Below are positions 4,377 to 42,979 of a stretch of DNA of 59,466 nt, piece by piece (the first letter of the stretch is position 1; each line of letters starts with the position of its first letter). The position numbers and the translations under genes are program-made. The stretch is taken from contig JAKLIP010000004.1 in the NCBI GenBank assembly GCA_022709545.1, positions 1 through 59,466 on the forward strand, read 5' to 3'. The notes under the pieces were generated by a model that made no database searches, was not told the origin of the DNA, and saw only the letters and a program-made list of their open reading frames with translations. This DNA is from Patescibacteria group bacterium (GTDB lineage Bacteria; Patescibacteriota; Minisyncoccia; Moranbacterales; GWC2-37-73).

Positions 4377-4399
4377 ATATAAAATCAAAAATATAAAAG

Positions 4400-6146: not shown

Positions 6147-6160
6147 AAAAATTTTTAAAC

Positions 6161-15586: not shown

Positions 15587-16915
15587 CTATCCTCTTCCAA
15601 TCGATTTATACTCGAACCCGAGTTCTTTCAATTTTTTCGGATCATACAGCAAACGACCGTCAAAAATCACAGGGTGATGCAAAAGTTTTTTGATTTCTTC
15701 AAAATCAGGCGCCCTGAAATCTTTCCATTCGGTCACGACAAGCAAAGCATCAGCATCTTTAAGCACGCTGTATTTGTCTTTAAAATAGGTTATGCTTGGA
15801 TTGTTGCCAAAATATTCTTCCCACTTGGCCATATGCATAGCTTCCGGATCATAAGCCTGAATTTTAGCCCCATGTTTGATGAGTTCACTAATTATTGTCA
15901 GAGCTGAAGATTCGCGCATATCATCTGTGCCTGCCTTGAAAGCCAACCCCCAAACAGAGAATGTTTTGCCTTTTAGATCTTCTCCGAATTTATCAATAAC
16001 CATCTGGGACAAAACAAACTTTTGTTTTTCGTTTGTAATTAATGTTTGCCTGAACATTTCAGCATCATATCCCAGATCTTTGGCGGTTTTTATGAGAGCT
16101 TTTACATCCTTGGGAAAGCATGAGCCTCCAAATCCAGGACCGGCATACATAAAAGGTTCGCCGATTCTTGGATCAGCGCCCATAGCTTTGCGAACATTAT
16201 CAAAATCAGCCCCGGCTTTAGCGCAAATATTCGCTAATTCATTGTTTACAGAAATTTTGGCCGCCAAGAAACAATTGGAAGCATATTTAACAATCTCGGC
16301 CGTCTTTTGATCCATGGAGAAAAACCTGCCTTCTCGACGCATAAACGGCGCATACATATCCTGCAATATTTTGATGGTTTCGGCATTATCTGATCCGACA
16401 ACAATCCGGCTCGGCTCCATAAAATCCTTGACGGCTGTTCCTTGCGCTAAAAATTCCGGATTGCTGACAACATTGAATTCTATTTTTTCGCCACGTTTTT
16501 CCAGTTCAGCATAGATAGTTTTGCTGACCAATTCGGCCGTCCCGACAGGAACCGTGGATTTATCAATAATAATCAAAGGATGATCCATCGTTTGCCCGAT
16601 TGATCTTGCAACATCCAAAACATGACTGAGATCCGCGCTGCCGTCTTCATTTGGAGGAGTCCCGACTGCAATAAAAATAATGTCATTTTCTTTAATCGCT
16701 TCTTCCAAATTTGTGGTGAAAGAAAGGTTTTTATTCTTCAAATTGCGTTCAACAATTTCATCTAAACCGTTTTCATGCAGAGGAACTTTGCCGCTGGCAA
16801 ATTGATCCACTTTTTTTTGATCTTTGTCCACACAAACGACATTGTTGCCCATTTCGGCAAAACATGCGCCGGTAACTGAGCCCACATAACCTGTTCCAAT
16901 GACTGCAATTTTCAT
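15587..16915 (-). CDS. ugd: UDP-glucose 6-dehydrogenase family
   Basis: The 442-residue protein has a Rossmann start (MKIAVIGTGYVGSVTGACFA), the central dimer domain and the catalytic Cys motif GPGFGGSCFPKDVKAL. It oxidises UDP-glucose to UDP-glucuronate with two NAD+ (or the GDP-mannose or UDP-ManNAc equivalent in close relatives). The length is normal. It supplies an acidic sugar nucleotide for the surface glycan and, if the nucleoside pathway at 23.5-30 kb uses a glucuronate unit, could supply UDP-glucuronate for that as well (inference). It sits upstream of the phosphoesterase with 10 bases between. Confidence 0.92.
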   Translation of the reverse strand: MKIAVIGTGYVGSVTGACFAEMGNNVVCVDKDQKKVDQFASGKVPLHENGLDEIVERNLKNKNLSFTTNLEEAIKENDIIFIAVGTPPNEDGSADLSHVLDVARSIGQTMDHPLIIIDKSTVPVGTAELVSKTIYAELEKRGEKIEFNVVSNPEFLAQGTAVKDFMEPSRIVVGSDNAETIKILQDMYAPFMRREGRFFSMDQKTAEIVKYASNCFLAAKISVNNELANICAKAGADFDNVRKAMGADPRIGEPFMYAGPGFGGSCFPKDVKALIKTAKDLGYDAEMFRQTLITNEKQKFVLSQMVIDKFGEDLKGKTFSVWGLAFKAGTDDMRESSALTIISELIKHGAKIQAYDPEAMHMAKWEEYFGNNPSITYFKDKYSVLKDADALLVVTEWKDFRAPDFEEIKKLLHHPVIFDGRLLYDPKKLKELGFEYKSIGRG

Positions 16916-21429: not shown

Positions 21430-21795
21430 TTAAAATATCTTTTTATTTTTTATATTTCCGCCTTGAAGTAAGAAGTCTTTATAGTCATTCAACAAGCCAT
21501 TATTCAAATCTTCAACAATGTCTTTTATGATTTTTTTAATATCCTCACAATATGGATGTCTGCTCACTAAATCACCAGAATGATGATATGAAATAGCTCT
21601 ACATCCACCGCCACACCCACCAATTGCTGGGCATGCCAAGCATAAAGAATTTTTAAATCTATTTCTCGCACTCCAGTAAATTCGATTTGCAGATTCTGGT
21701 TCAAATTCAATATTGCTCCAGTCATCTCGGCATTCCCTTAGTTTAAGATCATTTTCTAATTTTTGATATACTTCTTTTTGACATATTTGAATCAT
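21430..21795 (-). pseudogene. SPASM-domain fragment of a radical-SAM maturase
   Basis: The 121 residues correspond only to the C-terminal iron-sulfur (SPASM) part of peptide-modifying radical-SAM enzymes: CLACPAIGGCGGGCRAISYHHSGDL and HPYCEDI. The CxxxCxxC radical-SAM core is absent and the upstream DNA does not encode it in any frame I could see. It may be a decayed maturase or, because an AAGGA lies about ten bases before the ATG, a translated SPASM-only protein. It sits next to the ABC-F gene and shares the accessory region with two intact radical-SAM maturases. Confidence 0.6.
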
Positions 21796-21936: not shown

Positions 21937-21986
21937 CCTGATATGAGCTCTTTAAAAAACATTACTTAAAACAATTGGAGGATAAT

Positions 21987-23480
21987 ATGAATACTATATC
22001 AGCAAGCAACATTTCAAAGTCTTTTCCTGCAAAAAAAGTCTTCGAAAATATCTCACTAACAATCAACCAGGGTGATAGAATAGCTGTCATCGGAGAAAAT
22101 GGCATTGGTAAATCAACATTAATGAAGATACTTTGTGGCATAGAGTCGCCTGATGAGGGAAAGATCCAATGTGATAACTGGATTGACAGACGATATTCTG
22201 CTCAAGAACCAACATTTAACAAAACAAAAACACTTCTCGAGATAATTGCGGATTTAGCTAATCCAGATGAGTGTCTCAGAAATATGAGTAAACTTGGTTT
22301 TAAAGTTAGCGACAAAGACATCTCGGAAATGAAGGTGCAATCGTTAAGTGGTGGCCAGCAAAAAATTCTTGATCTCGCTTGCCAAATTTCATCTTCACCA
22401 GATTTTCTATTTATCGACGAACCAGAAAACCATCTTGACATTATTGCACGAAGAGAGCTCGGAAAAATAGTTAAGAAATATTGGGGTGCTGTTGTTTTCG
22501 TTTCGCATGATCGCCATTTCATCAACGAGGTTGCTACAAAAATAATTGAAATTGAAGATTGGCAAACAAGAGTTGTTACGGGAACATACGAAGAGTACAT
22601 AGCACAAAGAGAAATAGAAATTGAAGCTGAAGCACGTCATTGGAAATCAGAAAAAAAAGATATTCAACGATTAGAGAATGCCGTTCGCATCCTACAACTA
22701 CGTGCTCGATTCAATACAAAGGGTTCTGGTGTTTATCAGAGCAGAAAACGTGAACTCGAGAAACGAAAATCTAATTTGGGTGAGAAGCCCGCTACAGAAA
22801 GAGGACGAATTAAATTGCAATCAAATGATATTGACAGAAAAAATGGAAAGCGAATCGTCGTATGCGAAAATTTATCATTTCGCTATGGCAATTCTACACC
22901 ATTCTTATTTACTAATGTCAATCTGGGATTACAATTTGGTGAAAGGGTTGCTCTTGTTGGACGAAACGGCACTGGAAAGTCAACCCTCGTGAATATATTG
23001 CGAGGAATAATTCAACCGAATAGGGGGATTTGCAAATTAGGAAATGACATTAATGTCCAATATTTTGATCAGATGTCAACTTTTGACAATAAGTCCACTG
23101 CACTAAAAATTGTCGAAAGTGCCATGAGTTGCCATGAGGGAATCGCGAGATCTTTGCTTGCGAAAATACTCTTTAACCAACATGAAGTAACACTTCCTCT
23201 CCACAGACTTAGCGGAGGACAAAGAAACCGAATAAGAATCGCGTTACTTTTCGCGAAAAATCCAGAGTTTATTGTCCTTGATGAGCCAACTAATAATTTA
23301 GACCCCACAACATGGGACGTATTGGTTGATCAAATCCAAGACTACAAGGGAACACTTCTTATTATCTCGCATGATCAAAGTTTTCTTGAAAACATAAATA
23401 TGGATAAATTTTGGGTTTTCAAGAATCGTTCAATCATAGAAGATCTGCGAGATCTATCCAAAATACTGGCTGAGCTATGA
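21987..23480 (+). CDS. ABC-F ATPase, ribosome-associated type (1)
   Basis: The 497-residue protein has two ABC domains and no membrane segment. ABC1: GENGIGKST, LSGGQQK, LFIDEPENHLD. Interdomain linker about residues 190-290. ABC2: GRNGTGKST, LSGGQRNR, IVLDEPTNNLD. This is the ABC-F plan of translation factors and antibiotic ribosome-protection proteins. The ATG is fixed by TTGGAGGATAAT; a TTG inside that SD is not the start. It is convergent with the seven-gene biosynthetic operon at 23533-30067, which makes self-protection a reasonable guess. It differs clearly from the second ABC-F at 33965. A housekeeping EttA/Uup-like role cannot be excluded. Confidence 0.85.
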   Translation: MNTISASNISKSFPAKKVFENISLTINQGDRIAVIGENGIGKSTLMKILCGIESPDEGKIQCDNWIDRRYSAQEPTFNKTKTLLEIIADLANPDECLRNMSKLGFKVSDKDISEMKVQSLSGGQQKILDLACQISSSPDFLFIDEPENHLDIIARRELGKIVKKYWGAVVFVSHDRHFINEVATKIIEIEDWQTRVVTGTYEEYIAQREIEIEAEARHWKSEKKDIQRLENAVRILQLRARFNTKGSGVYQSRKRELEKRKSNLGEKPATERGRIKLQSNDIDRKNGKRIVVCENLSFRYGNSTPFLFTNVNLGLQFGERVALVGRNGTGKSTLVNILRGIIQPNRGICKLGNDINVQYFDQMSTFDNKSTALKIVESAMSCHEGIARSLLAKILFNQHEVTLPLHRLSGGQRNRIRIALLFAKNPEFIVLDEPTNNLDPTTWDVLVDQIQDYKGTLLIISHDQSFLENINMDKFWVFKNRSIIEDLRDLSKILAEL

Positions 23481-23532: not shown

Positions 23533-24660
23533 TTACAAATAAAATTCAATTTTATTAACAATTTCTAATGAGCCGCCAGAACCAACCCATAAACCAAGCT
23601 TAAATAAGCGTTCTTGATTATCCAAATTATTAACATTATCATCGAATAATTTTGCCAATTTTTTGATTTTTTTCTTATTTTTTAAAGTTTTTTCATAAAC
23701 ATATTCGAGCAAGTCAATAAATTCTTTTTCTGACATAAATTTATATTTTTCTTTTGATATTTCTAGTTCTTTTTCCCACCACATTATATTGCCACCAATT
23801 TCTTTAGAAAATATTCTCTGCAATTCTAATTGGCTCAAATTAGATGGTATAAAAAAACTGGTTGGTATATTACTCAAAAGAGCCTCCATAGTTGAGGTTT
23901 GCCCACCAATCGAGATGTAATGATCAATAACTTTCATTTTATCAAGTACTTCATCATGACTTAATGCCGAAACACCTAACCTTTTAGATGCAATTTGCTT
24001 TTTCAGAAAAAGCACTGCTTCTTTCCCTGCTACAATTTCAGTATTTTCATTACAAATAGTAGATAATTGCAAAATTGAAGCTATTAGCAATAAGTAATTC
24101 TTCTGAATGCCAGATCTCAAAGGATTGAAACCACCTCCTAAGCAAAGTATTTTTGAACCAGGCATAATTTTTTTATCCCTTGTTATATTCTCAAATATTC
24201 CTTCAATGATATTTATATTTGCTTTGTTGGTATATTCTGCTTTTCTTTTCACTATACCAGGAAAGCGCATCCAAAAAACCTCATCTGCTGCCAAGTGGGA
24301 CTCTGGAATATTTGTCCACATCCACGCCAATACATCCAAAAAAAATGTTGCGCAACCAACATTTTTTCCAGCTTCAACAATGAACCTATTCTGCACACCT
24401 AGCACCACTGTTTTGCCTTTAAGATTTTTCAAAAAATTCTCAATAACAGAAACATCTCTCTCGTTCAGTAATATTTTATTAACCGAATCAAGTTCAGGCA
24501 CTATTCTTTGACACTTTTCTGAACCAACAAAATAAACAGTGATATCTTTTTTTAATGAAAACCTTTTTTGAAGCTCCTTTAATATTGGTATTGCGTTTCC
24601 AGTTGGCCCAAAGCCAAAAGGATTAGAGGCTACTACAATATTTTTCATATTCATCATCAT
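23533..24660 (-). CDS. GT-B glycosyltransferase, MurG/cytosylglucuronate-synthase-like
   Basis: The 375-residue protein begins with IVVASNPFGFGPTGNAIPIL, a Gly-rich loop like that of GT-B enzymes, and carries the C-terminal donor-site pattern SIGGQTSTMEALLSNIPTSFF found in GT28/MurG-type transferases. The N-terminal FGFGPxGN segment and the LDVLAWMW stretch remind me of cytosylglucuronate synthases (BlsD/MilC) that join cytosine to UDP-glucuronate, but this is by eye only. It is the last gene of the operon and overlaps the LysRS-like gene by about 38 bases. The start could be any of several ATGs (MMMNMKN). An unrelated sugar transfer is the main alternative. Confidence 0.6.
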   Translation of the reverse strand: MMMNMKNIVVASNPFGFGPTGNAIPILKELQKRFSLKKDITVYFVGSEKCQRIVPELDSVNKILLNERDVSVIENFLKNLKGKTVVLGVQNRFIVEAGKNVGCATFFLDVLAWMWTNIPESHLAADEVFWMRFPGIVKRKAEYTNKANINIIEGIFENITRDKKIMPGSKILCLGGGFNPLRSGIQKNYLLLIASILQLSTICNENTEIVAGKEAVLFLKKQIASKRLGVSALSHDEVLDKMKVIDHYISIGGQTSTMEALLSNIPTSFFIPSNLSQLELQRIFSKEIGGNIMWWEKELEISKEKYKFMSEKEFIDLLEYVYEKTLKNKKKIKKLAKLFDDNVNNLDNQERLFKLGLWVGSGGSLEIVNKIEFYL

Positions 24661-25660
24661 TAATGTTCATTACTGCCTCATTAGGCATCCTAAATTCATG
24701 TCCGCTATATACTCTAGCGAAATTAATTAATTTTTCCAAATCAGCATATACTGTGTTATTTCTACTTTTACTCATTCGCTCATTGTTAAGCGGGGAAAGC
24801 AATGTTGGTGTAAATAGCATCCTTGGAATCTTAATCGAATCGTCAAAATATTCAATCATTTTTTTTCGAATCATATAGTCACCCTCACTAAAATGATCGC
24901 CTCCGCTTAGTGTAATATCAATATCAAATATCTTTAGTCGAGCAACAAGAAGCGGTTTATGATACCACCAATAATCAAACATTTTTAAAGGATTTATTAT
25001 TTTTGTCGAACACGTAGAACATTCCCATTTGATTATTTTTTTTTGAATATCGATAACATTAGTTTTTCCGTGAGATTTTTTACATAAAGGACAGATTGCA
25101 CCAGCATATGCTATTGGTTTTTCGAGAAGCTCCATTCTGGAATATTTCTTGAATATCTGCGATTGATCCAATGGATTTAATATTGTTTTCATCAAATATT
25201 CTTCAAAAATTGGCGATGATTTCAAATCAGAATTGCGAACAAAATTAATAGATATATTGCTAAATTTTTTAAGCTTAGACCTCAATGCTGCTTCAATTGA
25301 AGGTTGCCAATAATCCACAACTGATATTGCTTTTCTGTTTGCACTTTCATATTTCAAATATTTTATAGATGTCTCCTTGGGATAAATATTGAATGGATAT
25401 CTCCTGTAATCAGGTCCGTCCAATGCATCCTGTTCCCAATCGTTAATTGATATAAAAAATGTAAATTCAGGCTGCTTTTTATATTTTTTTTCATAAAATT
25501 CACATAAAAGATAAGGATAAGCCACTACGGCAAGTGCATTTCCAGCATGAAACCCGTAAGGACGTATACCGACATGAATTTTTTCATTGCCATTGGTAGA
25601 CGCGACTAAATTTTTAAGCCCTTCTAAATATAAGAACAGATCGTTTGGGTTATTTTTCAT
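24623..25660 (-). CDS. Stand-alone class I LysRS-like catalytic domain (aminoacyl ligase-like)
   Basis: The 345 residues carry the class I synthetase signatures: a HIGH-like HAGN (about residue 39), a four-Cys zinc ribbon (CPLCKKSHG then CSTC), WWYHKPLLVARL and GGDHFSEG as in class I LysRS, and a clear KMSKS counterpart ERMSKSRNN near residue 302. Class I LysRS is usually above 500 residues; the C-terminal anticodon-binding part is missing. Such truncated synthetases elsewhere work as amino-acid ligases (for example MshC, a CysRS relative, on an amino sugar). In an operon with an aminotransferase and glycosyltransferases, activating an amino acid for an amide bond is the best inference. It starts 3 bases after the kinase gene. 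Confidence 0.75.
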   Translation of the reverse strand: MKNNPNDLFLYLEGLKNLVASTNGNEKIHVGIRPYGFHAGNALAVVAYPYLLCEFYEKKYKKQPEFTFFISINDWEQDALDGPDYRRYPFNIYPKETSIKYLKYESANRKAISVVDYWQPSIEAALRSKLKKFSNISINFVRNSDLKSSPIFEEYLMKTILNPLDQSQIFKKYSRMELLEKPIAYAGAICPLCKKSHGKTNVIDIQKKIIKWECSTCSTKIINPLKMFDYWWYHKPLLVARLKIFDIDITLSGGDHFSEGDYMIRKKMIEYFDDSIKIPRMLFTPTLLSPLNNERMSKSRNNTVYADLEKLINFARVYSGHEFRMPNEAVMNINDDEYEKYCSSL

Positions 25661-25663
25661 AAA

Positions 25664-26650
25664 TTATTTTAAATTACTTTCAATATCAATCTGTTTAAAA
25701 TATTGTATCTTACGAAACATATGAGATTTAAGTTCCCTTGGTTCAAAATTGACAGACAATTCTCTTTTTTTTTCTTCAGTAATAACATCAGCAATATATG
25801 TTGCAGTATCTGACAGACATGAAAATTCAATCCATTGCTCCAAATCACTAACTTTTGGATAAAAATCTGAATCAATAATATTACAATATCCCTTAAAAAA
25901 AGCATTGAAATTACGCCAATTAACTTCTGTGCCACCATCAGCAAGAGACCATTCGACAAGCGCAAGAGCTAGATCTTTAATTGGTGGTGCAACACAAATC
26001 CAATCAAAATCAACAATGCACGAAATCTTTTTTTTCGAGCTATCAACTCCAAATAAAACATTGTGAGGACGAAAGTCGTTGTGTATTATTATATTTTTTC
26101 TACTAATATTGTTTTTAGCGAAATCAATCATTTTTGTAATTATATCTAAAAAAACGTTACCATTATTATATCGCGCCTTAATATCATCACTTAGTAATAA
26201 CGCTCTTTCAATTTCTGTTGTTATTGTTCTTTGTAATTGAAAAGGAGTGCCATATTTAATGCTTGCGTTATGAACAGAGGCTAAAGCACTCCCCCCGTTA
26301 TATGCTTGGAGTTCCGATAAATAATTATTTGGTAAAATATTAAAACTATTACCTTCAATCCACTCAAAAACCACTAAAATTTTATTTTCAAAATTAGTCA
26401 TTAACAAACCGTTTATATTTTTAATTACACCTGCCACTAAGACATTTTGCTTTTTTAAAAACTGCAAAAAATCCAATTCTTTCATTACTTCATTTGTATC
26501 TTTTACTAATCTTTTACTTAAACGAACAAAAAATAATCCACAATTTGATGAAACTTTGTAGGTATCATTGTCTTCAGATGATCTAATATGGCTTATTTTA
26601 ACATTGGTAAAATTATAAAATTTTTCAATGTGTTGTTGCAATTTTTTCAT
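25664..26650 (-). CDS. APH-family (aminoglycoside/choline) phosphotransferase
   Basis: The 328-residue protein has the APH kinase core: the N-lobe, then the catalytic loop IIHNDFRPHNVLF (HxDxxxxN) and the metal-binding segment CIVDFDWICV (DFD). Members phosphorylate hydroxyls of small molecules such as aminoglycosides, choline, homoserine or nucleoside antibiotics, or act as fructosamine kinases. Here it may phosphorylate a pathway intermediate or mask the product for self-protection. The start lies 26 bases inside the end of the GT4 gene, which argues for coupled translation. Confidence 0.75.
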   Translation of the reverse strand: MKKLQQHIEKFYNFTNVKISHIRSSEDNDTYKVSSNCGLFFVRLSKRLVKDTNEVMKELDFLQFLKKQNVLVAGVIKNINGLLMTNFENKILVVFEWIEGNSFNILPNNYLSELQAYNGGSALASVHNASIKYGTPFQLQRTITTEIERALLLSDDIKARYNNGNVFLDIITKMIDFAKNNISRKNIIIHNDFRPHNVLFGVDSSKKKISCIVDFDWICVAPPIKDLALALVEWSLADGGTEVNWRNFNAFFKGYCNIIDSDFYPKVSDLEQWIEFSCLSDTATYIADVITEEKKRELSVNFEPRELKSHMFRKIQYFKQIDIESNLK

Positions 26651-27842
26651 AATTATTTTTTTTAATTATATCCCAAACTAATTGTGACTCTTCTGACCAT
26701 AATATAATAGACTTTTTATCATTACTTCCTTGAATTATATCCTTATATATTGAAAAATATTGGTTTGCAATATTTTTCCAAGAGAATTTTTGAACGTAAA
26801 TAAGCGCATTTTTGCTAAGACGCTTACGTAAGATATCATTCGATAATAATTCTCTCATACGTGAAACACATTCGTCAATATTTTCAATTTCAAACAAAAG
26901 AGATGTTTCATTTTCGGATGTATACTCTGAAATTCCAGCAGCGCGACTGCCTATAACAGGACATCCACTTGCTTGAGATTCCAAATTTATCAATCCGCCT
27001 CCTTCTGAACGAGATGGAACAACAGTAAACAATGCTGATTTTAACCATGCTATTGATTCTTCCCAATTGATAGCACCGATAAATTTTATCCTATCTTCAA
27101 CGTCATGTTTTTTTACTAGCTCTAATAAATCTTCATATTCATCTCCATCTCCTGCAATAACCAAATCAACATTTGGAAATTCATTGTGTATGCGAGCAAA
27201 GGAATTTATCGTAATATCAATTCCTTTTGACCAAACAAGACGCCTGCATGAAAAAATAAATTGCCTATCATGTATGACTGGCTTTATTAAAGAAACAGCA
27301 TTTACATCAACGCCTCCGTATACAACGTAAACTGGAAGATTGGGATCAATATTTTTATTTATTATTTTTTTTAAGTCTTCTGAAAAAGTTACATTACGAT
27401 CTGCCTGCATTGAAACATTAATTGCAATATCCTTGCTTTCTTTCCAAATAAGATTTGACAATTTGTCATTCGGTTCAGGCAATTCGCCTCCACCAGCACT
27501 TACCACAATAGGTACACCCCACTTTCTTGCAAGCAACAATGCGAATAAAGGAGTTGGTCTCCTTAGCCCAATGACATGAACACAATCAGCCTTGATATTA
27601 TTTTCTATTTCAACAAGCTTTTTAGCCACTTCCACAAAATCTTCACGAGTTTTTGCTGATTTTATCCTATAAATATCAACGCCATCAACAGAAGAGTATT
27701 CATCTAATTCTGCTGGGTACTTTTTAGTTAAGACACATACACTATGTCCGTTTCTTATGTATACACGACTCAATTCCCTTATAGTTGTTTCAATGCCACC
27801 AATGTGAGGATAATAAAGTGATGCGACAAATAATATTTTCAT
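26625..27842 (-). CDS. Glycosyltransferase family 4
   Basis: The 405-residue GT-B enzyme has the Gly-rich N-terminus (YYPHIGGIETTIREL), SCRRLVWSKGIDITINSF and the E-x7-E donor segment SRSEGGGLINLESQASGCPVIGS. It would transfer a sugar from a nucleotide donor to a soluble or lipid acceptor. The 4-base overlap with the upstream methyltransferase stop and the 26-base overlap with the downstream kinase tie it into the operon. The C-terminal 40 residues (after YKDII) extend beyond the normal domain and are not recognisable. Confidence 0.85.
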   Translation of the reverse strand: MKILFVASLYYPHIGGIETTIRELSRVYIRNGHSVCVLTKKYPAELDEYSSVDGVDIYRIKSAKTREDFVEVAKKLVEIENNIKADCVHVIGLRRPTPLFALLLARKWGVPIVVSAGGGELPEPNDKLSNLIWKESKDIAINVSMQADRNVTFSEDLKKIINKNIDPNLPVYVVYGGVDVNAVSLIKPVIHDRQFIFSCRRLVWSKGIDITINSFARIHNEFPNVDLVIAGDGDEYEDLLELVKKHDVEDRIKFIGAINWEESIAWLKSALFTVVPSRSEGGGLINLESQASGCPVIGSRAAGISEYTSENETSLLFEIENIDECVSRMRELLSNDILRKRLSKNALIYVQKFSWKNIANQYFSIYKDIIQGSNDKKSIILWSEESQLVWDIIKKNNYEKIATTH

Positions 27843-28555
27843 ATTTTTTTCTTCCTACATATTGCAAATAATTGTCCTCTAAATTGATCTTTTTCAGTTA
27901 CACCATTTTTGTAATTTATGTAAAACAAATGCTCAATAGTAAAACCGCTTCCATCTAATAAATTGCTGAGTTCCTTTTTGGAAGAAATATAGACTTTTGA
28001 TTTTTCATCATTTATTGGAATAGAGAAAATCCCCTTATTTCTTCGAGCCATTTCAATAATACTATTTCGTAAAAAATTGCAAATTCCGTATTGTGCTATG
28101 TTGAATCTGTTATTAACATCGATGAAAAGCATTCCTTCTGAATCTAGAAGCGTTGACATGTTTTTTATTGCTTTTTGCCTATCTTTCATAATTGTTATAT
28201 GTCCCAAGACATTCCACAAACATAGAATTGAACCAAAAAACCCTTTGTATTTGTTTATAGTTTGTTGCGAAAGATTTTCAATACTTTCATTAATGATAGT
28301 CTGCATGCCATTTATCCTAGCTCTTTCACACATTTCCGCACAATTGTCTAATCCAACAAAATCAACACAAATTTTGTTTTTCAATTCAAGAGAGCGCAAT
28401 CCGTCTCCACAACCAATATCTAAAATGGAACCACTTTCATAATTATCAATGATGTAAGAATTAATTGCATGTATATAATCAAGCCTTCCATTTCTCAATG
28501 AATCATAATAATCATAATGTTTTGTGTAAAATTGTTCTGAAGATAAGGTTTTCAT
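27839..28555 (-). CDS. Class I SAM-dependent methyltransferase
   Basis: About 238 residues with motif I ILDIGCGDGLRSLEL, the acidic residue after strand 2 (VGLDN) and a motif IV-like GSILCLWNVLGHI, typical of small-molecule methyltransferases (Methyltransf_25/UbiE-like). I chose the ATG of MKTLSSEQFY at 28555; a GTG at 28573 overlapping the DegT stop is equally open and would couple the genes. The likely role is O-, N- or C-methylation of the pathway product. Confidence 0.8.
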   Translation of the reverse strand: MKTLSSEQFYTKHYDYYDSLRNGRLDYIHAINSYIIDNYESGSILDIGCGDGLRSLELKNKICVDFVGLDNCAEMCERARINGMQTIINESIENLSQQTINKYKGFFGSILCLWNVLGHITIMKDRQKAIKNMSTLLDSEGMLFIDVNNRFNIAQYGICNFLRNSIIEMARRNKGIFSIPINDEKSKVYISSKKELSNLLDGSGFTIEHLFYINYKNGVTEKDQFRGQLFAICRKKKI

Positions 28556-28562
28556 ATTATTT

Positions 28563-29669
28563 CTAGCACTCACTAATAATATTTACTATCATATCCACAT
28601 CTGCTTCTGTCATTTCATAATACAACGGCAAGGCTATGACACTATCGTAAAAACTTTCTGCAATATTAGAATAAAAATTACTATTTTCATATGCCTTAAA
28701 TTTATACACTGGGGGAAAATAATTTGTTTTACATTCTATACATGCATCCTGTAATCCATCGATTATTTTATTTTTTAAGTCAATATTTGCAACAATAATA
28801 TAAAAAATGAACCAACTTTTATGAGGATCATCAATATCATCAGGCAAAGAAATATGTGCCAATTTTTTCAGTTTTTTCTTGTACAATAATACTATTAATC
28901 TTCTTTTTTCAATGAATGCTTCTATTTGTTCCATTTGAGCGCAACCTATAGCTGCCTGAACCTCAGTCATGCGATAATTATAGCCAACTTCTGCATGATT
29001 TAACCAATCTGATCCTTCAATCCTTCCCTGATCACGCATTGAATTACAAAACCTATAAATATCCTCATCATCAGTTACAATCATTCCACCTTCACCCCCA
29101 GAAGTTATTTGCTTGTTTTTATTAAAACTAAAAACAGCTGCATGCCCAATCTGACCAGCAATAAAAGATTTATTTCTTGATCCCACTGCTTGTGAAGCAT
29201 CCTCCAGCAAAAAAACACCATACTTATCACATATTTCCTTTATTTTTTTAGTGCTTGGTATTCGACCAAAAATATCAACATATACTACAGTTGAAATATC
29301 GCTGTTCGATTTCAAAATAGATTCGAGTGAATTTTCATTAATTAATAAATTTTTTCCTATATCGCAAAAAATAATGCGTTGTTTTTCATAAAGGGCAACA
29401 TTTGCACTTGCAATAAAGGTAAGTGGAGTAGTAACAACTGCACTTCTTGATATCTTATTTCCATTATATTTAACAAGCAAATGAAGGGCGGAAGTTCCAT
29501 TGGACACAGCGATAGCATATCTTCTTCCAATGAATTTAGCAAAATCTTTTTCAAAAAGATTTACAAAACTTTGCTCGGGCGATAACCTACTTTCAAGTGC
29601 AGTTTCAATATACTTTGACTCATTACCACCAAAATAAGGCTTAAAAGAAGGTATAATATATTTGCTCAT
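28563..29669 (-). CDS. DegT/DnrJ/EryC1/StrS PLP-dependent aminotransferase
   Basis: The 368-residue protein has SNGTSALHLLV (phosphate cup), the LLEDASQAVGS motif and the PLP-lysine segment FSFNKNKQITSGGEGGM. The family makes amino sugars from keto sugar nucleotides and, in nucleoside antibiotics such as blasticidin S, aminates the hexose (BlsH). An amino group on the sugar would give the acceptor for the LysRS-like ligase in the same operon (inference). The start overlaps the stop of the preceding gene by four bases. The length is normal. Confidence 0.85.
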   Translation of the reverse strand: MSKYIIPSFKPYFGGNESKYIETALESRLSPEQSFVNLFEKDFAKFIGRRYAIAVSNGTSALHLLVKYNGNKISRSAVVTTPLTFIASANVALYEKQRIIFCDIGKNLLINENSLESILKSNSDISTVVYVDIFGRIPSTKKIKEICDKYGVFLLEDASQAVGSRNKSFIAGQIGHAAVFSFNKNKQITSGGEGGMIVTDDEDIYRFCNSMRDQGRIEGSDWLNHAEVGYNYRMTEVQAAIGCAQMEQIEAFIEKRRLIVLLYKKKLKKLAHISLPDDIDDPHKSWFIFYIIVANIDLKNKIIDGLQDACIECKTNYFPPVYKFKAYENSNFYSNIAESFYDSVIALPLYYEMTEADVDMIVNIISEC

Positions 29670-30067
29670 AAAAATAATTCTTTCAATACTTTACATGCAT
29701 CGTCTAATGTTTCCACTCTCACATGGGAGTGATAATCCATCCAATAATCTCCTTTATGAGCATTCCCAAAAACAATAACTGGCATATTCGAGGTATAAGC
29801 AACATAGATTTCCATCGCTGTACCAATCATGGAAACATTTTCAAATGTATCATTAACCAAAAGAATGTCGGAGTGATTAATATCATACAAATCACGTATA
29901 ACAGCACTCTTCTGTGAGGGCATTGTTTCTTTTTTTTCACGACCACGAAGTGCGTGAATAACATTAAATACATTTACTAGCTTATTTTTTGCGTCATTAC
30001 GCCATTCTAATGATTTATCACGTGAAACACCACGCATAGGTCCACTTAAAAATACAGTTTTTTTCAT
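29666..30067 (-). CDS. Nucleoside 2-deoxyribosyltransferase-like (CMP-hydrolase-like) enzyme
   Basis: The 133-residue protein has the family start VFLSGPMRGVS, RDLYDINHSDILLVN, and VSMIGTAMEIYVA with the catalytic-type Glu of the GTAxE motif. The family cleaves or transfers N-glycosidic bonds; MilB and BlsM of mildiomycin and blasticidin pathways belong here and release cytosine from (hydroxymethyl-)CMP. As first gene of an operon with a DegT aminotransferase and a GT-B enzyme, this is the most diagnostic hint of a nucleoside pathway. A salvage or DUF1937-like role is the alternative. Confidence 0.65.
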   Translation of the reverse strand: MKKTVFLSGPMRGVSRDKSLEWRNDAKNKLVNVFNVIHALRGREKKETMPSQKSAVIRDLYDINHSDILLVNDTFENVSMIGTAMEIYVAYTSNMPVIVFGNAHKGDYWMDYHSHVRVETLDDACKVLKELFL

Positions 30068-33036: not shown

Positions 33037-33063
33037 ATGCTCAGAAAGGAGAAAACGCTATGA
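33037..33063 (+). CDS. Possible leader peptide MLRKEKTL overlapping the erm-like start
   Basis: An 8-codon ORF begins at ATG 33037 and its TGA overlaps the start codon of the methyltransferase (ATGA). The methyltransferase SD (AAAGGAG) lies inside it. Inducible erm genes are often controlled by short leader ORFs, but this one has no SD of its own, so it may be chance. Confidence 0.3.
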   Translation: MLRKEKTL

Positions 33064-33959
33064 GTAAAGATACAAGACAATTGAGCCACTCACAGAACTT
33101 CCTTCGAAACTTTAAATTAGTAACTAGACTGATAGCAGACAGTGATATTAATAGTAATGATGTTGTCTTTGAAATAGGCCCAGGTAAAGGAATTATCACG
33201 AGTCAATTAGCAAAAAAAGCAGCTAGGGTAATTGCAATTGAATATGATAAAAATTTAGCTGATAAACTCAAACAATCATTTGTTGATTATGGCAATGTTG
33301 AAATTATTTTTGGTGATTTTTTGAAAGTAAAATTACCGGAACAAAAGAACTATAAAATTTTTTCCAATATTCCCTTTAATCTAACAGCTGACATTCTAAA
33401 CAAGTTAACCTTGGATGTAAATCCTCCACAAGAATCATATTTAATTGTTCAAGAAAATGCTGCCAGAAAATATGCAGGTGGCCCCTATGGTGAGGAAAGA
33501 CTGCGTTCTCTTATATTAAAACCCCGGTTTGAACTGATTATCACTCATCAATTCAGAAACATTGATTTTTATCCGGTGCCAAGTGTTAATATTGTCATGC
33601 TCAAAATAAAAAAACGCAAACAGTGTTTATTAAATAGTAATGAGATGAATATATACATGGATTTTGTCGCTTATGCTTTCAGCCATCAAGGTAGAAATTT
33701 TAAAGAAAGGATGAGACGAATTTTCACTAATGAACAGTTTAGACGGCAAGCTTCTGAACAAAAATTTGATTTATCAGCTCGTCCAGGTGATTTGAATTTT
33801 GAACAATGGCTAGGATTGTTTAAATACTTTGTAAAAGGAGTATCTGGTGACAAAAAAGCTTTAATCCATGAGTCTTATTCGCGATTGATTCGTAAACAAA
33901 GCAAATTGGAAAAAATACACCGTACTCATAATATTAAAAAAGAAAGAATAAGGAGGTGA
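33060..33959 (+). CDS. Erm-like 23S rRNA (adenine-N6) methyltransferase
   Basis: The 299-residue protein has HSQNFLRNFKLVTRLI, motif I FEIGPGKGIITSQL, AIEYDKNLADKL, and the catalytic NIPFNLTADIL. The stretches VQENAARKYAGGPYG and FYPVPSVNIVML match actinobacterial-type Erm proteins better than KsgA/RsmA, which has NLPYN. Erm enzymes methylate A2058 and confer macrolide-lincosamide-streptogramin B resistance. There is a basic C-terminal extension of about 50 residues. Start: ATG with AAAGGAG nine bases before. Its stop is inside the SD of the following ABC-F gene, so the pair is coupled. KsgA-like rRNA dimethylation is the alternative, though less likely. Confidence 0.8.
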   Translation: MSKDTRQLSHSQNFLRNFKLVTRLIADSDINSNDVVFEIGPGKGIITSQLAKKAARVIAIEYDKNLADKLKQSFVDYGNVEIIFGDFLKVKLPEQKNYKIFSNIPFNLTADILNKLTLDVNPPQESYLIVQENAARKYAGGPYGEERLRSLILKPRFELIITHQFRNIDFYPVPSVNIVMLKIKKRKQCLLNSNEMNIYMDFVAYAFSHQGRNFKERMRRIFTNEQFRRQASEQKFDLSARPGDLNFEQWLGLFKYFVKGVSGDKKALIHESYSRLIRKQSKLEKIHRTHNIKKERIRR

Positions 33960-33964
33960 AACAT

Positions 33965-35641
33965 ATGTTGTTAGCAAATAATATCCACAAAAGTTATAGG
34001 GGTAAGGAAATACTCTGTGGCATATCATTACAAATCGATCAAAATCAAAAAGCTGCTTTAGTAGGCTCTAATGGAGCTGGAAAATCAACTTTTTTAAAAA
34101 TTTTGGCTGGTTTTGAAAAACCTGACACAGGATCAATTCGGCTTAATGGAAGCAGGATTGGCTATTTGCCTCAGGAAATCAAAATTGATTCTAAAGAAAC
34201 AGTCTTGGACTATCTTAAAAGGATAACCGGGATCGATAAAATAGAATCTAAAATGAATGATCTTGAGCGGGACCTAAATAATCCAGAAAATATAGTAAAA
34301 TATGGTGAATTCCAAAGCCAATATCTCCAATTAGATGGTTACACATTTGAGTATCGTATGAAGGCTATTTTAAGAGGATTTGGTTTGAATTCCATATCCA
34401 CAGCAAGACCACTAAATTCTTTAAGCGGGGGTCAAAAAAGTAAAGTAGCTTTAGCTGGTTTATTGCTTCAAAAATTTGATTTGCTTTTGCTTGACGAACC
34501 GACTAATAATCTTGATTTGCCAGCTATTATCTGGTTAGAAAATTTTTTACAAAACACCAGCGCTTCGTGCTTGATAGTATCTCATGATCGAAGATTTTTG
34601 GACAAATTAATTACAAAGGTATTTGAAATTGATTGGTTTAAACGAGATATCAATGAATATTCAGGTTCGTATAGTAATTACCTTAACTATCGGGAAGCAA
34701 AAATACACCGCGAACAAGAGCAGTACGAACTACAAGAGAAAGAAAAAAGAAGATTGGTGGCCAGCATACATCAAAAGAAACAGTGGGCTGAAAGGGGCTC
34801 AAAACAAACTACAACAGATAACGACAAGTATATACGCGGTTATCGTCGTGATCATGCGGCAAAAATTGCTCAAAATGCAAAGTCAATTGAAAGACAGATT
34901 GAGAAAATGGACGTAATAGAAGTCACAAGACAGCGATCTAAGCTTATTATACCCTTACTAGCCAAGAATAGTGAAGCTAAACATGCAATCACTCTTGAAG
35001 ATGTATGCGTTAAACATTCAAATGGTTTTCAGTTGGGACCTATTAATCTACAAATCAGTTATGGAACCCGGATAGGCATTCTCGGTCCTAACGGAAGCGG
35101 AAAATCAACCTTGCTAAAAGTTATTAGTAAAGAATATGAGCCAACTTTTGGTCGAGTATTTGTCGGATCTTCTCTTAATTTCGGTAACCTGATGCAAGCG
35201 CACGAAAATATGTCACGGGAAAAATCTATTTTTGACTTTTTCTGTGATAATTCAGTAACCGATAAAGAAAAGATTTATTTTACACTAAGTAAGTTCCAGT
35301 TTTTAGCAGAAGACGCCAAAAAGAAAATTGGTGACCTGAGTCCAGGTGAGCGAGCTAGAGTGTTATTGGCTTTGTTTTCTGCTTTATCGGTAAACGTTCT
35401 TTTGCTTGATGAACCTACAAATCACTTGGATTTTGAGGTAATTGAGGCATTGGAGCATACGCTGGCAGATTATACGGGAACAATTGTGTTTGTTTCGCAT
35501 GATCGCTATTTTTTGCAGATGGTTAACCCGACTAATTTGTTCCTTATTAATGATGGAAATTTCAAACCAATTGTCAACTATGACAGTTATATTTCCTCAT
35601 TGACTTCCGAAGTTAAAAAACTATTAACTTCTTTGCCATAA
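33965..35641 (+). CDS. ABC-F ATPase, probable ribosome-protection protein (2)
   Basis: About 558 residues, two ABC domains, no membrane helices: GSNGAGKST, LSGGQKSKVA, LLLDEPTNNLD, a charged linker (residues 225-325, EQEQYELQEKEKRR), then GPNGSGKST, LSPGERARVLL (LSPGE variant of the signature) and LLLDEPTNHLD. This matches antibiotic-resistance ABC-F proteins of the Vga/Lsa/Msr kind. The true start is the ATG at 33965 behind AGGAGGTGA; the GTG at 33956 is inside the SD. Coupled to the Erm-like gene, it would give a second layer of ribosome protection against 50S-targeting drugs. Confidence 0.88.
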   Translation: MLLANNIHKSYRGKEILCGISLQIDQNQKAALVGSNGAGKSTFLKILAGFEKPDTGSIRLNGSRIGYLPQEIKIDSKETVLDYLKRITGIDKIESKMNDLERDLNNPENIVKYGEFQSQYLQLDGYTFEYRMKAILRGFGLNSISTARPLNSLSGGQKSKVALAGLLLQKFDLLLLDEPTNNLDLPAIIWLENFLQNTSASCLIVSHDRRFLDKLITKVFEIDWFKRDINEYSGSYSNYLNYREAKIHREQEQYELQEKEKRRLVASIHQKKQWAERGSKQTTTDNDKYIRGYRRDHAAKIAQNAKSIERQIEKMDVIEVTRQRSKLIIPLLAKNSEAKHAITLEDVCVKHSNGFQLGPINLQISYGTRIGILGPNGSGKSTLLKVISKEYEPTFGRVFVGSSLNFGNLMQAHENMSREKSIFDFFCDNSVTDKEKIYFTLSKFQFLAEDAKKKIGDLSPGERARVLLALFSALSVNVLLLDEPTNHLDFEVIEALEHTLADYTGTIVFVSHDRYFLQMVNPTNLFLINDGNFKPIVNYDSYISSLTSEVKKLLTSLP

Positions 35642-35700: not shown

Positions 35701-36936
35701 TTAACTTGTTGTGACCTTTTTATTATACCAATACTCTCTAAAGGCATTAATGCCATACGGGTCACGACCATGTACGTCACGATTAAAGATGAAAGACCGA
35801 GCTTGGCATTCTCGTAAGCCATTTTGTCGAAAGTTGGAAAATGCTTTATGACTTCGCCACGTTTCCATAAAATTATCATCAAAAAGTGGTAATTCTTCTT
35901 CCCTATAATATCCTGCGGCTTTTAGGGATGGACACGTTACCATACGTCCAGTTACATCGATTACCATGCCGGATCTTGTCGCACGGCACTCATTACGAGG
36001 AGGCAAACCGAGTAACTCTGTAACGATTGCGGCATTTGATAGCCCGATTCTATACCCCTTGTCTCGTCGTAACCTAAGCAGATCAGCAACTGTTTCAAAA
36101 AAAATATTAGGATTTGGAATCAATTCTTTATGTTCTGGACGAAACGGTTTAAAAAGGTTGAAGTTGCACGGAATTTCTAGTTTCTCGCAATATTCGATAA
36201 CATCTTTATAAATCGGTAGATTTACTGAATTTAGTGTGCAGGTGACTTCTACAGCAACGTTATAACTTAGAAGTTGTTTCAGAACTGCATCAACTTTGTC
36301 GAAAACACCATCGCCTCTGATATAGTTATGAATATTTTTTGTGCCATCAAGACTAACAATTATTACTAGTCGATTTATTTTGGCTAGTTTTTTAATCTTT
36401 TCTTCATCAATAAGTGTAGCGTTAGTAACTAGATTTATTGCCATATCTCGACTTTGACAGTATTCTAAAATATCCATTAATCCCTTGTGTTTTAATGGCT
36501 CTCCCCCAATAAGACTTACTTCACATACCTGATGATTGGCAAGTTGACCAATAATACTGATGGCTTTTTCGGTGAGCATATGTACACCATCATGGTGAGC
36601 TTGAAAACAGTGCCGGCAACATAGATTGCATGAAGTGGTAATTTCGAGTTCTATGCCGAGTGGTATTTCAAGCTGTTCTTGCTCAATTATATTGAATCCA
36701 TCTGGGTGAATTTCGTCTTTTATCTGCGCTAGAAATTCGGCAACATCGTCTTTCGCTTGCAATAGTGGAATTTTATAGTCATTAGCAACTGTTTTTGCAA
36801 TCCTTTCCGCATCTTTCTCTTGATTAAATAACATATCGAGAATTAAGGAACCGATTTCGTTTACACCAACTATTCGGCGTGAATCGATAAAATATACCAG
36901 ATAGCGATTTTTTTCCTTTCTAATCTTTATTCTCAT
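35701..36936 (-). CDS. Radical-SAM RiPP maturase with N-terminal PqqD-like RRE
   Basis: About 411 residues in three parts: a PqqD-like RiPP recognition element (residues 1-85, VGVNEIGSLILDMLF then a helical bundle), the radical-SAM core with CNLCCRHC (C103, C107, C110) and SLIGGEPLKHKGL, and a short SPASM-like end with NECRATRSGM and VTCPSLKAAG but few later Cys. PqqE-like enzymes with this plan install carbon-carbon or thioether links in a small precursor. The start at 36936 has AAAGGAG at good spacing; an ATG six bases earlier is too close to the SD. The gene follows the precursor gene at 37039 behind an attenuator-like hairpin. Confidence 0.85.
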   Translation of the reverse strand: MRIKIRKEKNRYLVYFIDSRRIVGVNEIGSLILDMLFNQEKDAERIAKTVANDYKIPLLQAKDDVAEFLAQIKDEIHPDGFNIIEQEQLEIPLGIELEITTSCNLCCRHCFQAHHDGVHMLTEKAISIIGQLANHQVCEVSLIGGEPLKHKGLMDILEYCQSRDMAINLVTNATLIDEEKIKKLAKINRLVIIVSLDGTKNIHNYIRGDGVFDKVDAVLKQLLSYNVAVEVTCTLNSVNLPIYKDVIEYCEKLEIPCNFNLFKPFRPEHKELIPNPNIFFETVADLLRLRRDKGYRIGLSNAAIVTELLGLPPRNECRATRSGMVIDVTGRMVTCPSLKAAGYYREEELPLFDDNFMETWRSHKAFSNFRQNGLRECQARSFIFNRDVHGRDPYGINAFREYWYNKKVTTS

Positions 36937-36973
36937 AATCATACTCCTTTCTGTTTTGCCTTTGAAAAAAATT

Positions 36974-40819: not shown

Positions 40820-40876
40820 GCGACACCTCCTATTTGATTTTTTTAGGTACTATTGGCCATCATTGACTAACGTTTA

Positions 40877-40905
40877 ATTATACTCCTAAAAACGGAATTT
40901 GTCAA
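40877..40905 (-). promoter_or_regulatory. Promoter, shared GGAGTATAAT type (B)
   Basis: TTGACA (40905-40900), 17-base spacer ending TTTTTAGGAG, TATAAT (40882-40877). It drives the EamA gene. Confidence 0.75.
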
Positions 40906-40961
40906 ATCAAAACACCTATTTTTCGCTGAAATAAAGCAAAAAATAGCTAGAAAAGACTGTT

Positions 40962-41027
40962 TTACATCTTCCAAAAAATGAACATGAGGATTGCATAAAA
41001 CAGCGCGAACATCGCCACATTATCCAC
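40962..41027 (-). other. Short hydrophobic ORF module, copy 1 (ends IFWKM)
   Basis: A 21-codon ORF (VDNVAMFALFYAILMFIFWK plus M) starts at a GTG overlapping the methyltransferase stop and would encode one membrane helix. Its end and 3' flank (AAACAGTCTTTTCTAGCTAT) recur with changes at 45667-45751; a shorter, more divergent match follows the Fic gene at 44446. It is either a micro-protein or a conserved 3' element. Confidence 0.35.
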
Positions 41028-41635
41028 TAGCATTTACGTGCAATTATCTCAACTATGCCATGAATATGTTTTTCTTCTTTGCCTGGATGACCTTTGTCTA
41101 CAACTATACCTTCCGAATAATGCAGACACTCAAAGTCTCTAAACATATTCGCAAGCTCTCCTTGTTTAAAATGGTATTTGATTGATCTTTTTTTTGTTTT
41201 ATTTGAAGGATCTTTATTGGTAAAAGAAGAAATTATTATTATTCCATTTTTTTTTATTTTATTCTTAACATTGTTTATTAATTTTATAATATTTCTTTTA
41301 TCCAAAAATTGTAAGACATTGAGGCAGACTACAAAATCGTAATAGTTAGAAGCTATATCGTAATTGGAAATATCTGCCTGTATAACTTCTATATTCTTAC
41401 TATCTTGTTCAGAAATTCTCTCTTTTATTTGTTTAACAGCAATGTTTGATAAGTCAACCGCTGTCATTTTAAAATTCTTACTCGCAAAATAAAAAATGTT
41501 CTGTCCTTGACCGCAACCCAAATCGAGACCCCTGCTATCTGGTTTTATATATCTCAAGGCCTTTTTAACAAACGAATTGGTATTTCCACTTTGAGAAGTT
41601 CTATTCTTTTTATATACTTTATCAAAAATAAACAT
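41027..41635 (-). CDS. Class I SAM-dependent methyltransferase
   Basis: About 202 residues with motif I GLDLGCGQGQNIFYF, acidic AVDLSN, ADISNYDIASN and the motif IV-like DFVVCLNVLQFL. This is a small-molecule or protein methyltransferase of the Methyltransf_25/TehB-like kind. I chose the ATG whose product begins MFIFDKVYKKN; a TTG upstream lies inside a stable hairpin. It follows the Cys-rich 46-residue peptide gene on the same strand, so it may belong to that RiPP-like locus as a tailoring enzyme (inference). Confidence 0.75.
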   Translation of the reverse strand: MFIFDKVYKKNRTSQSGNTNSFVKKALRYIKPDSRGLDLGCGQGQNIFYFASKNFKMTAVDLSNIAVKQIKERISEQDSKNIEVIQADISNYDIASNYYDFVVCLNVLQFLDKRNIIKLINNVKNKIKKNGIIIISSFTNKDPSNKTKKRSIKYHFKQGELANMFRDFECLHYSEGIVVDKGHPGKEEKHIHGIVEIIARKC

Positions 41636-41659
41636 ATTTAATATTTTAATAAATTTTTT

Positions 41660-41689
41660 GGAGGGTGGCAATATCTACTGCCACCCTCC
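41660..41689. other. Perfect 11-bp hairpin without a U-tract
   Basis: GGAGGGTGGCA (41660-41670) and TGCCACCCTCC (41679-41689) pair perfectly. On the minus strand an A-run, not a T-run, follows, so it is not a standard terminator. It sits between the precursor-like gene and the methyltransferase and may be a processing or stabilising site. Confidence 0.6.
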
Positions 41690-41708
41690 TACCTAGTTCG
41701 AATAGTTT

Positions 41709-41849
41709 TTAATCACCGCAAGAAAAATCACAGTGACCACAGACACGAGCTTTGCCATTAAAAACAAAGCCTTTTGCGACAAGATCCCTGATCTTGGTCT
41801 TCTGATCATTGGTAACCTTAATGTATTTTACCTTCTTTTTTTTCTGCAT
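41709..41849 (-). CDS. Cys-rich RiPP precursor-like peptide, 46 residues
   Basis: This short gene encodes a Lys-rich leader (MQKKKKVKYIKVTNDQ), a middle helix (KTKIRDLVAKGF) and a C-terminal core with three Cys: RVCGHCDFSCGD. A good SD (AAAGGAG, 8 bases before the ATG) supports translation. It lies 83 bases downstream of a radical-SAM/SPASM maturase on the same strand. The layout and the CxxCxxxC end are typical of thioether-bridged (sactipeptide/ranthipeptide) or other radical-SAM-modified RiPPs. I do not recognise the exact family. Confidence 0.7.
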   Translation of the reverse strand: MQKKKKVKYIKVTNDQKTKIRDLVAKGFVFNGKARVCGHCDFSCGD

Positions 41850-41932
41850 AATAAGCTCCTTTCGGTGAGCGGTTATTTTTTATTTGTTTGCTATACCTAC
41901 TTTCCGTATTGACCTGTTTTTATCACCTCCTT

Positions 41933-42979
41933 TCAGTTATGACAATGCAACAAGCATTGGGGATCATGTTTAAAATCACTGCCAGTTGCAACATACGCAA
42001 CCGCTCTGCATCCACGACAGTATTTCAAAAGTTTACACTCTCGACATCCTTCAATTTCCTCAACTCTTCGATACTTTTCCATTTTTGGATTATCAACAAA
42101 ATGATAAAGGAAATTGCTTTTTGGACTCCATTTTCCTATGATACTGCCTGGGTGTCGCCTGCATGCCATCAATGTTTTATCTGGCAACATCGTCATAGTA
42201 GACGATCCCATTCCACATCCCCCGCTAACAACACCTTGTTCAATACCAAGGGAATCCTGCCGACAAATAGCAATAAGCGGTTCTTTTCTGAGTTGTTTAT
42301 ATCCTTTCTTTTCATATTGCAGATGCTCTTCCAAAATTTTCTTTATAAATCGCATGTACTCGTTAGCTGGAATACCACAATCTCCCTGATTCGGAACCCA
42401 GCGAGCAAACATCCAGTGTTGAGCGCCATTGTCATAAACGGCTTTCATGACATCAAACATTTCTCGAAAGTTGTGTGCAGAAAGAGTGGACATGATATAT
42501 ACTGGTATTCCTGCTTTAGAAAGATCCCTAATAGCTTGCATGGTTCTTTGAAAACTGCCTTTGTATCTGATTTCATCATGCTTTTTTTCCATACCATCTA
42601 TAGATAGTTGGAAATGCTTTAGGTTAAACTTCGCCAACATTGAAATATTTCTTTCATCGAGAAGTTCTGGGTTACCTAGAATGCTAACACAACTAAATTT
42701 GGTCAGAGATTGAGAAGCTGCCTTAACTTTAGCCAAAATGTCCCAAAAATGATTATGGAGCATCGGATCACCGCCTGTCAGTGCAATAACGGGTAGAGCA
42801 TCGAATGCGTCGCAACACTCTAAAAAATCACCTATAATTGCATCAGCATCGTCCAATCTCACGTCCTCTCCTTGGTGCGTATGCTGGTAGCAATGTTTGC
42901 ATCCATTATTGCATTTGTTGGTCAAATGCCATTGAAGATAAATTCGATTTATTTTTTCAGGACCTTCTTTTTTCATCAT
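41933..42979 (-). CDS. Radical-SAM/SPASM peptide maturase
   Basis: The 348-residue protein has the radical-SAM motif CNNGCKHC (C23, C27, C30), LTGGDPMLHNHF, and a SPASM-type end with MACRRHPG, GCRECKLLKYCRGCRAV and DPQCLLHC giving at least eight Cys for auxiliary clusters. No RRE is fused. This is the plan of sactionine/ranthipeptide synthases and AnSME-like enzymes. The start is set by AAGGAGGGAAACTG before ATGATG. A further orphan SD (AAAGGAGGTGAT) lies at the 3' end of the gene without a matching ORF. The likely substrate is the 46-residue peptide just downstream. Confidence 0.85.
   Translation of the reverse strand: MMKKEGPEKINRIYLQWHLTNKCNNGCKHCYQHTHQGEDVRLDDADAIIGDFLECCDAFDALPVIALTGGDPMLHNHFWDILAKVKAASQSLTKFSCVSILGNPELLDERNISMLAKFNLKHFQLSIDGMEKKHDEIRYKGSFQRTMQAIRDLSKAGIPVYIMSTLSAHNFREMFDVMKAVYDNGAQHWMFARWVPNQGDCGIPANEYMRFIKKILEEHLQYEKKGYKQLRKEPLIAICRQDSLGIEQGVVSGGCGMGSSTMTMLPDKTLMACRRHPGSIIGKWSPKSNFLYHFVDNPKMEKYRRVEEIEGCRECKLLKYCRGCRAVAYVATGSDFKHDPQCLLHCHN

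Follow-up and report, generated by a model that had tools for sequence, protein, structure and literature searches.

The 59,466-nucleotide window analysed here, an entire contig (JAKLIP010000004.1; C12) of the Patescibacteria group bacterium assembly GCA_022709545.1, carries at 23533-30067 a compact operon of seven minus-strand genes. Outside the interval first noted, a gene for an ABC-F protein (ABCF1) ends at a distance of 52 bp from the last gene of the operon. On balance, we favor the view that the operon and the flanking ABC-F gene together form a horizontally moving cluster, and that its product is a ribosome-targeting aminoacylated glycosyl-nucleoside. The genes are as follows.

29666..30067, minus strand: protein of the nucleoside deoxyribosyltransferase (NDT) superfamily, 133 aa, probably a nucleobase-freeing nucleotide N-glycosidase to judge from its AlphaFold model, fold matches and orthologues
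28563..29669, minus strand: DegT/PseC-like sugar aminotransferase, 368 aa
27839..28573, minus strand: S-adenosylmethionine (SAM)-dependent methyltransferase, 244 aa, GTG start
26625..27842, minus strand: GT4 glycosyltransferase of the BshA/MshA superfamily, 405 aa
25664..26650, minus strand: APH-type kinase, biosynthetic or product-inactivating, 328 aa
24623..25660, minus strand: LysL, a class-I lysyl-tRNA synthetase (LysRS) catalytic core without the anticodon domain, proposed tRNA-free aminoacyl ligase
23533..24660, minus strand: GT-B glycosyltransferase resembling cytosylglucuronate (CGA) synthase
21975..23480, plus strand: ABCF1, ABC-F ribosome-protection protein, proposed self-resistance

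A preliminary description, made from the sequence alone, had read the operon as resembling a peptidyl-nucleoside antibiotic pathway. Its account of seven tightly coupled genes is correct: all seven open reading frames (ORFs) are present at these coordinates, and five of the six junctions overlap (4, 11, 4, 26, and 38 bp), the remaining one being a 3-bp gap. Its assignments of the DegT, methyltransferase, GT4, APH, and LysRS-like proteins also hold, each lying beyond its Pfam cut-off. As it stated, no BlsE-type radical SAM gene is found in the operon, nor is one found in the six other loci described below.

The same gene set recurs in other genomes. A phylum-wide search with TIGR04467, the CGA synthase model, led to one genome (G362) in which orthologues of the NDT-type protein, LysL, GT-B, GT4, DegT, and methyltransferase (31-53% identity) stand beside two ABC-F genes. 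A two-sequence LysL alignment was then run against about 85,000 species genomes, and six loci besides that of the window were obtained: in Staskawiczbacteria (L044), Nomurabacteria (L045, with a gene order identical to that of the window), CG_2015-02_35_19 (L046, the same contig as in G362), a rumen alphaproteobacterium (L047), Beckwithbacteria (L048), and a Rickettsiales bacterium (L049, cut by the contig end). Thus, seven clusters are distributed over five genomes of the candidate phyla radiation (CPR) and two symbiont-like Alphaproteobacteria, and the gene set that the preliminary description proposed to look for in other Patescibacteria is present in four further CPR genomes. Every one of the seven clusters has LysL and GT-B, and six have NDT and DegT, with L049 ending at the contig edge; the APH kinase is present or absent. 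Full-strength orthologues of LysL and of the NDT-type protein occur in the same two of 380 genomes of the phylum. LysL is found in one of 175 genomes of the order of the Rickettsiales bacterium and in one of 43 of the order of the rumen alphaproteobacterium, the latter having in addition one divergent LysL in a different setting. In the LysL tree, the alphaproteobacterial sequences are nested within those of CPR, and monophyly of the CPR sequences is rejected (AU test, p 0.0085, seven ingroup sequences). No relatives of GT-B or LysL were found in plasmids or IMG/VR, none of LysL in phages, and none of GT-B in the genomes of 95 relatives. In L049, a transposase-like ORF (8174-8629) lies between an ABC exporter gene and the cluster, which fits mobility. 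In L044, the sugar-dehydratase and DegT genes are each split into two ORFs (3191-5749 and 5759-6874) by frameshifts or assembly faults, and the GT-B gene contains a run of N.

An ABC-F gene flanks six of the seven clusters. Full-length ABC-F genes number 0.73 per relative genome, and a rough model, which assumes random placement and takes this density from one lineage, gives about 7e-11 for six of seven by chance. In the ABC-F tree, ABCF1 of the window forms one clade with those of L044 and L045 (support 100/99), and L046b and L048 form a second (100/100). Both clades are separate from the ABC-F that is common among relatives, whereas a second ABC-F protein of the window (ABCF2, encoded next to an Erm gene) groups with the ABC-F of cluster-less relatives. 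Because of these groupings, ABCF1 is assigned to the cluster and the Erm-ABCF2 pair is not. Against the NF000355 cut-off of 380 bits, ABCF1 scores 373.9 and ABCF2 444.5. The ABC-F genes beside six of seven clusters and the clade of ABCF1 point to a ribosome-targeting product with self-protection. There is a known case in which Ard1, the ABC-F protein of the A201A cluster, confers self-resistance specific to nucleoside antibiotics (PMC10201436); it is in this feature that the operon is compared with A201A. Adjoining ABCF1, 21430-21795 resembles a gene remnant; its 121 aa correspond to the C-terminal SPASM-domain part of a maturase of the radical SAM type.

LysL matches PF01921 (E 3e-9). It has 345 aa vs. 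about 525 aa in canonical class-I LysRS, and the match stops at the catalytic core, the anticodon-binding domain being absent. Both class-I adenylation motifs (HIGH-like and KMSKS-like) are kept, and GIRPYGFHxGN, the zinc motif CxxC..CxxC, and MxKS are invariant across seven LysL orthologues. In the tree, the LysL clade is well apart from canonical class-I LysRS; a single-sequence PDB search with LysL returned nothing relevant. LysL was rejected as the housekeeping LysRS since a separate class-II LysRS exists in the cluster genomes (five of the seven score above the cut-off, and the remaining two have a partial match or one slightly under it). A similar enzyme is MshC, the class-I synthetase-derived, tRNA-independent amide ligase of mycothiol, which acts on an amino sugar (PMC9736012; PMC2922099). 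LysL is to LysRS as MshC is to CysRS, from which MshC derives; LysL has class-I LysRS as its relative and is located in a nucleoside-type cluster. A divergent LysL (30% identity, motif GIRPYAFHAGN) is encoded at 3666-4634 of another contig (L101, G684:C28) beside Nudix, HAD, and kinase-like genes. This contig also carries lysozyme- and integrase-like ORFs, and is a second, different setting of the LysL family.

The DegT protein matches PF01041 (274 bits, E 2e-81), and its nearest curated models are PseC (249.4 bits, cut-off 423.5) and a LegC type (243 bits), both below cut-off. ColD-type dehydratases carry His in place of the PLP-binding Lys; in five DegT orthologues this position (Lys186, in NKxxT..GG) is invariantly Lys. 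The affinity to PseC and LegC, which aminate C4 of nucleoside diphosphate (NDP) sugars, suggests that DegT provides an amino-sugar donor for GT4, a logic like that of amicetin. The cluster of G362 has in addition a PseB-like dehydratase, a formyltransferase, and a deacetylase that is BshB1-like at 67 bits, short of the cut-off, and the dehydratase and deacetylase, together with the DegT affinity, point to amination at the NDP-sugar level. The preliminary description had named BlsH as the enzyme that aminates the sugar; the affinity of the DegT protein suggests NDP-sugar amination rather than a BlsH-type reaction on the nucleoside. The methyltransferase (PF13489, E 3e-11) has orthologues of 29-34% identity in five other clusters. 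GT4 (PF00534, E 8e-35) matches the BshA model at 104 bits, below cut-off, and also the MshA model, and has orthologues in four other clusters. In the APH kinase (PF01636, E 3e-19), HNDFR and DFDW are invariant in three orthologues.

The NDT-type protein scores 19 bits in Pfam against a cut-off of 30. Its AlphaFold model (pLDDT 87) matches NDT (Z 15.9), MilB (Z 14.1, 130 residues), DNPH1 (Z 14.0), and BlsM (Z 12.7), rows differing by at most 1 in Z being counted as ties. Because the NDT, MilB, and DNPH1 matches tie, the fold by itself points to no one substrate. The protein shares 50-59% identity with its orthologues from five other clusters, and Glu86 (the nucleophile position), Asp59, and Arg12 are invariant. 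A weak profile alignment to a CMP N-glycosidase (E 0.16) would place these at the catalytic Glu (E103), the ribose Asp (D78), and Arg23 of MilB, the Arg being present in six of six orthologues. This was the only profile match, and a single-sequence PDB search gave no relevant one. In L046 a Ham1-family gene is near the NDT gene, and in L047 one overlaps it, which is consistent with a route from nucleoside triphosphate to nucleoside monophosphate (NMP) to base. The GT-B protein has no Pfam match, and a single-sequence PDB search with it gave nothing relevant. Its sole meaningful NCBIfam match is TIGR04467 (36.3 bits, E 3.4e-9), which also picks up, with a best E of 1.5e-12, six of the eight GT-B proteins in the alignment. 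The predicted fold (pLDDT 72.8, with a weak stretch at 113-162) gives Z of about 21 to GT1 enzymes over about 300 residues and 20.3 to MurG. Elsewhere in the phylum, TIGR04467 mostly gives short matches in MurG-sized proteins, which were treated as MurG because one inspected (L015/L019) sits in an ftsW/mur cluster. A distant GT-B protein (L017, G460:C40, 12834-13940) keeps the PFGFGP motif and has the phylum's best CGA-synthase score (E 4e-12). It was rejected as a cluster member, its neighborhood being different: dihydroorotase- and dihydroorotate-dehydrogenase-like genes are nearby, and this may be another pyrimidine-glycoside pathway.

Several points weigh against a nucleoside-type, self-protected cluster. 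MilB and BlsM share the pyrimidine motif F-L-(G/A)-(G/A)-P-F-x-x-L-(L/V/T) (PMC4081090), but the NDT-type protein of the window has F-L-S-G-P-M-R-G-V-S, and Met replaces the base-stacking Phe in six of six orthologues. The GT-B score of 36.3 bits is far from the TIGR04467 equivalog cut-off of 300. L049 has an ABC exporter-type protein instead of an ABC-F in the stretch read, and a dedicated exporter is absent from most clusters, L049 being the only one with it. The two assumptions of the chance estimate for ABC-F linkage count here as well. Accessory genes vary among the clusters, so that the products probably differ, and no product is known for any of them. The preliminary description had also named, as evidence that would go against it, grouping of these two proteins with salvage or peptidoglycan enzymes; the folds decide this in neither direction, with GT-B tied between GT1 enzymes and MurG and the NDT-type protein between MilB and DNPH1. 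Of the proposed CMP-hydrolase-like enzyme, the superfamily fold shared with MilB and BlsM stands, and the specificity is not supported, with the motif absent and the fold tied with deoxyribosyltransferases and DNPH1. For GT-B, CGA synthase is still the only named family resembled, and the GT-B fold is present. Likewise, the natural-product-like gene set in a CPR-type genome is borne out, and its recurrence in seven genomes and the ABC-F genes strengthen it, while the defining tests for BlsM/MilB and BlsD/MilC failed. Cytosine as the base is only a guess, and a rather doubtful one, because the NDT-type protein is without the MilB/BlsM motif and GT-B is below the CGA synthase cut-off.

From gene content, families and folds, motifs, conservation, and ABC-F linkage, the following reactions, building blocks, and antibiotic activity can be proposed. 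The NDT-type protein would cleave an NMP to a free base, with the NMP perhaps coming from Ham1-type pyrophosphatases, which are encoded beside two of the related clusters. GT-B would couple the base to a uridine diphosphate (UDP) sugar. An amino sugar, made by DegT through amination of an NDP-4-keto sugar at C4, would be attached by GT4. LysL would adenylate an amino acid, perhaps lysine, and then, like MshC, join it to an amino group as an amide with no need of tRNA. The methyltransferase, with the APH kinase in some clusters, may finish or mask the product, which ABC-F would clear from the producer's ribosomes. With the blasticidin S and mildiomycin pathways this scheme shares a nucleotide N-glycosidase-type protein, a glycosyltransferase resembling CGA synthase, an aminotransferase, and an aminoacyl step. 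It differs from them in the CGA synthase score and the MilB/BlsM motif, in having no BlsE-type radical SAM, in the class-I LysRS relative to which the amide step is assigned, in the second glycosyltransferase, and in the ABC-F linkage. Amicetin, a peptidyl transferase inhibitor, consists of cytosine, the deoxysugars amicetose and amosamine, and amide-joined acyl units (PMC7040171). The set of two glycosyltransferases, aminotransferase, methyltransferase, and amide ligase would fit this chemistry, and the gene logic matches amicetin, compared by product chemistry, at least as well as blasticidin. No p-aminobenzoic acid genes were seen, and a synthetase-like ligase takes the place of the amide-forming enzymes of the amicetin/plicacetin cluster.

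The same enzymes could instead serve the cell surface, with DegT, GT4, GT-B, and methyltransferase building an amino sugar of a glycan or glycolipid that LysL aminoacylates on the envelope, the ABC-F being incidental. The PseC/LegC affinity of DegT, the PseB-like dehydratase and formyltransferase of G362, which are typical of surface sugars, the tie of GT-B with MurG (Z 20.3), and the polysaccharide-type genes in the left 17 kb of the window agree with this. Yet such an operon has no role for the conserved NDT-type N-glycosidase and does not account for ABC-F at six of seven clusters in cluster-specific clades, and a lipid carrier enzyme, a flippase, and a polymerase are all missing from the conserved genes; we consider it rather unlikely. 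GT4, de-N-acetylase, and a class-I synthetase-like ligase also recall mycothiol or bacillithiol synthesis, so the operon might make a cofactor or serve redox metabolism rather than make an antibiotic. GT4 indeed matches the BshA and MshA models, the G362 cluster has the BshB1-like deacetylase, and the relation of LysL to LysRS parallels that of MshC to CysRS (PMC9736012; PMC2922099). The deacetylase is, however, in one cluster only, a distribution of two in 380 phylum genomes is too sporadic for a core redox cofactor, and the ABC-F linkage and the pair of NDT and GT-B are left unexplained, making this quite improbable.

The neighborhood of the operon also raises the idea of a resistance island, in which the operon would modify or detoxify foreign antibiotics together with ABC-F, Erm, APH, and GNAT. 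Past the first gene of the operon, at a distance of about 3 kb, are the following genes, with a GNAT gene nearby on the opposite side.

33060..35641, plus strand: Erm rRNA methyltransferase and second ABC-F (ABCF2), overlapping by 4 bp

Erm scores 233 bits against a cut-off of 212 and is over the cut-off in one of 57 relatives, namely the source genome. All but one of the operon's seven genes are, however, of biosynthetic types, Erm does not recur with the cluster, and ABCF2 groups with cluster-less relatives; a resistance island is thus very improbable. Membership of Erm in the cluster is unproven, since the other cluster loci lack it; one other cluster genome has an Erm match just over the cut-off on a different contig, which may be KsgA. 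The ABC-F tree likewise disfavors ABCF2 as self-resistance, and the Erm-ABCF2 pair is probably a separate resistance locus that looks to be of the macrolide-lincosamide-streptogramin type. A radical SAM gene at 35701-36942 was rejected as a BlsE equivalent, its best matches being unrelated maturases below cut-off and the gene not being conserved with the cluster.

Returning to the aminoacylated glycosyl-nucleoside, it is quite possible, though we hesitate to go so far, that the clusters encode peptidyl-nucleoside antibiotic pathways of a new class, in which a class-I LysRS core has been repurposed as tRNA-free amide ligase and a dedicated ABC-F gives self-resistance, spread among CPR and symbiont-like Alphaproteobacteria, and that some episymbiotic CPR make translation inhibitors. 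The prevailing picture of CPR bacteria is one of streamlined, dependent organisms that rarely carry biosynthetic clusters. Those reported are for LAP, lantipeptide, and terpene (PMC7298704), and no CPR nucleoside pathway was found in the open-licence PMC papers searched. If the reading is true, the existence of such a cluster, mobile and with its own protection, would suggest that episymbionts wage chemical warfare or manipulate their hosts, its product would offer a new scaffold against the 50S subunit, and LysL would be a LysRS-derived addition to the few known tRNA-free synthetase-like ligases.

One further gene of the window could bear on sugar supply.

15587..16915, minus strand: UDP-glucose 6-dehydrogenase-like enzyme (PF03721, E 2e-65; TuaD 489 bits, below cut-off)

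If linked to the cluster, its product could supply UDP-glucuronate.

The contig belongs to a bin with 9.6% contamination. Two glycyl-tRNA synthetase (GlyRS) genes are present in the bin, one on contig C1 and one on C12 (56109-57524), the latter 81% and 80% identical to those of two other genomes of the order. IspG on C12 (54949-55998) is also a second copy with respect to other contigs of the bin. C12 is CPR-type DNA, but these second copies suggest that it may stem from a sister CPR organism whose DNA entered the bin. Between C12 and C10 there is a 2.2-kb stretch of 95% DNA identity (40821-43019 vs. G000:C10:61215-63406) encoding a methyltransferase and a radical SAM/SPASM protein, a pair that is ACGX-system-like but below cut-off. 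The flanks of this pair are only 49-81% identical at the protein level, as after recent exchange or in mixed strains.

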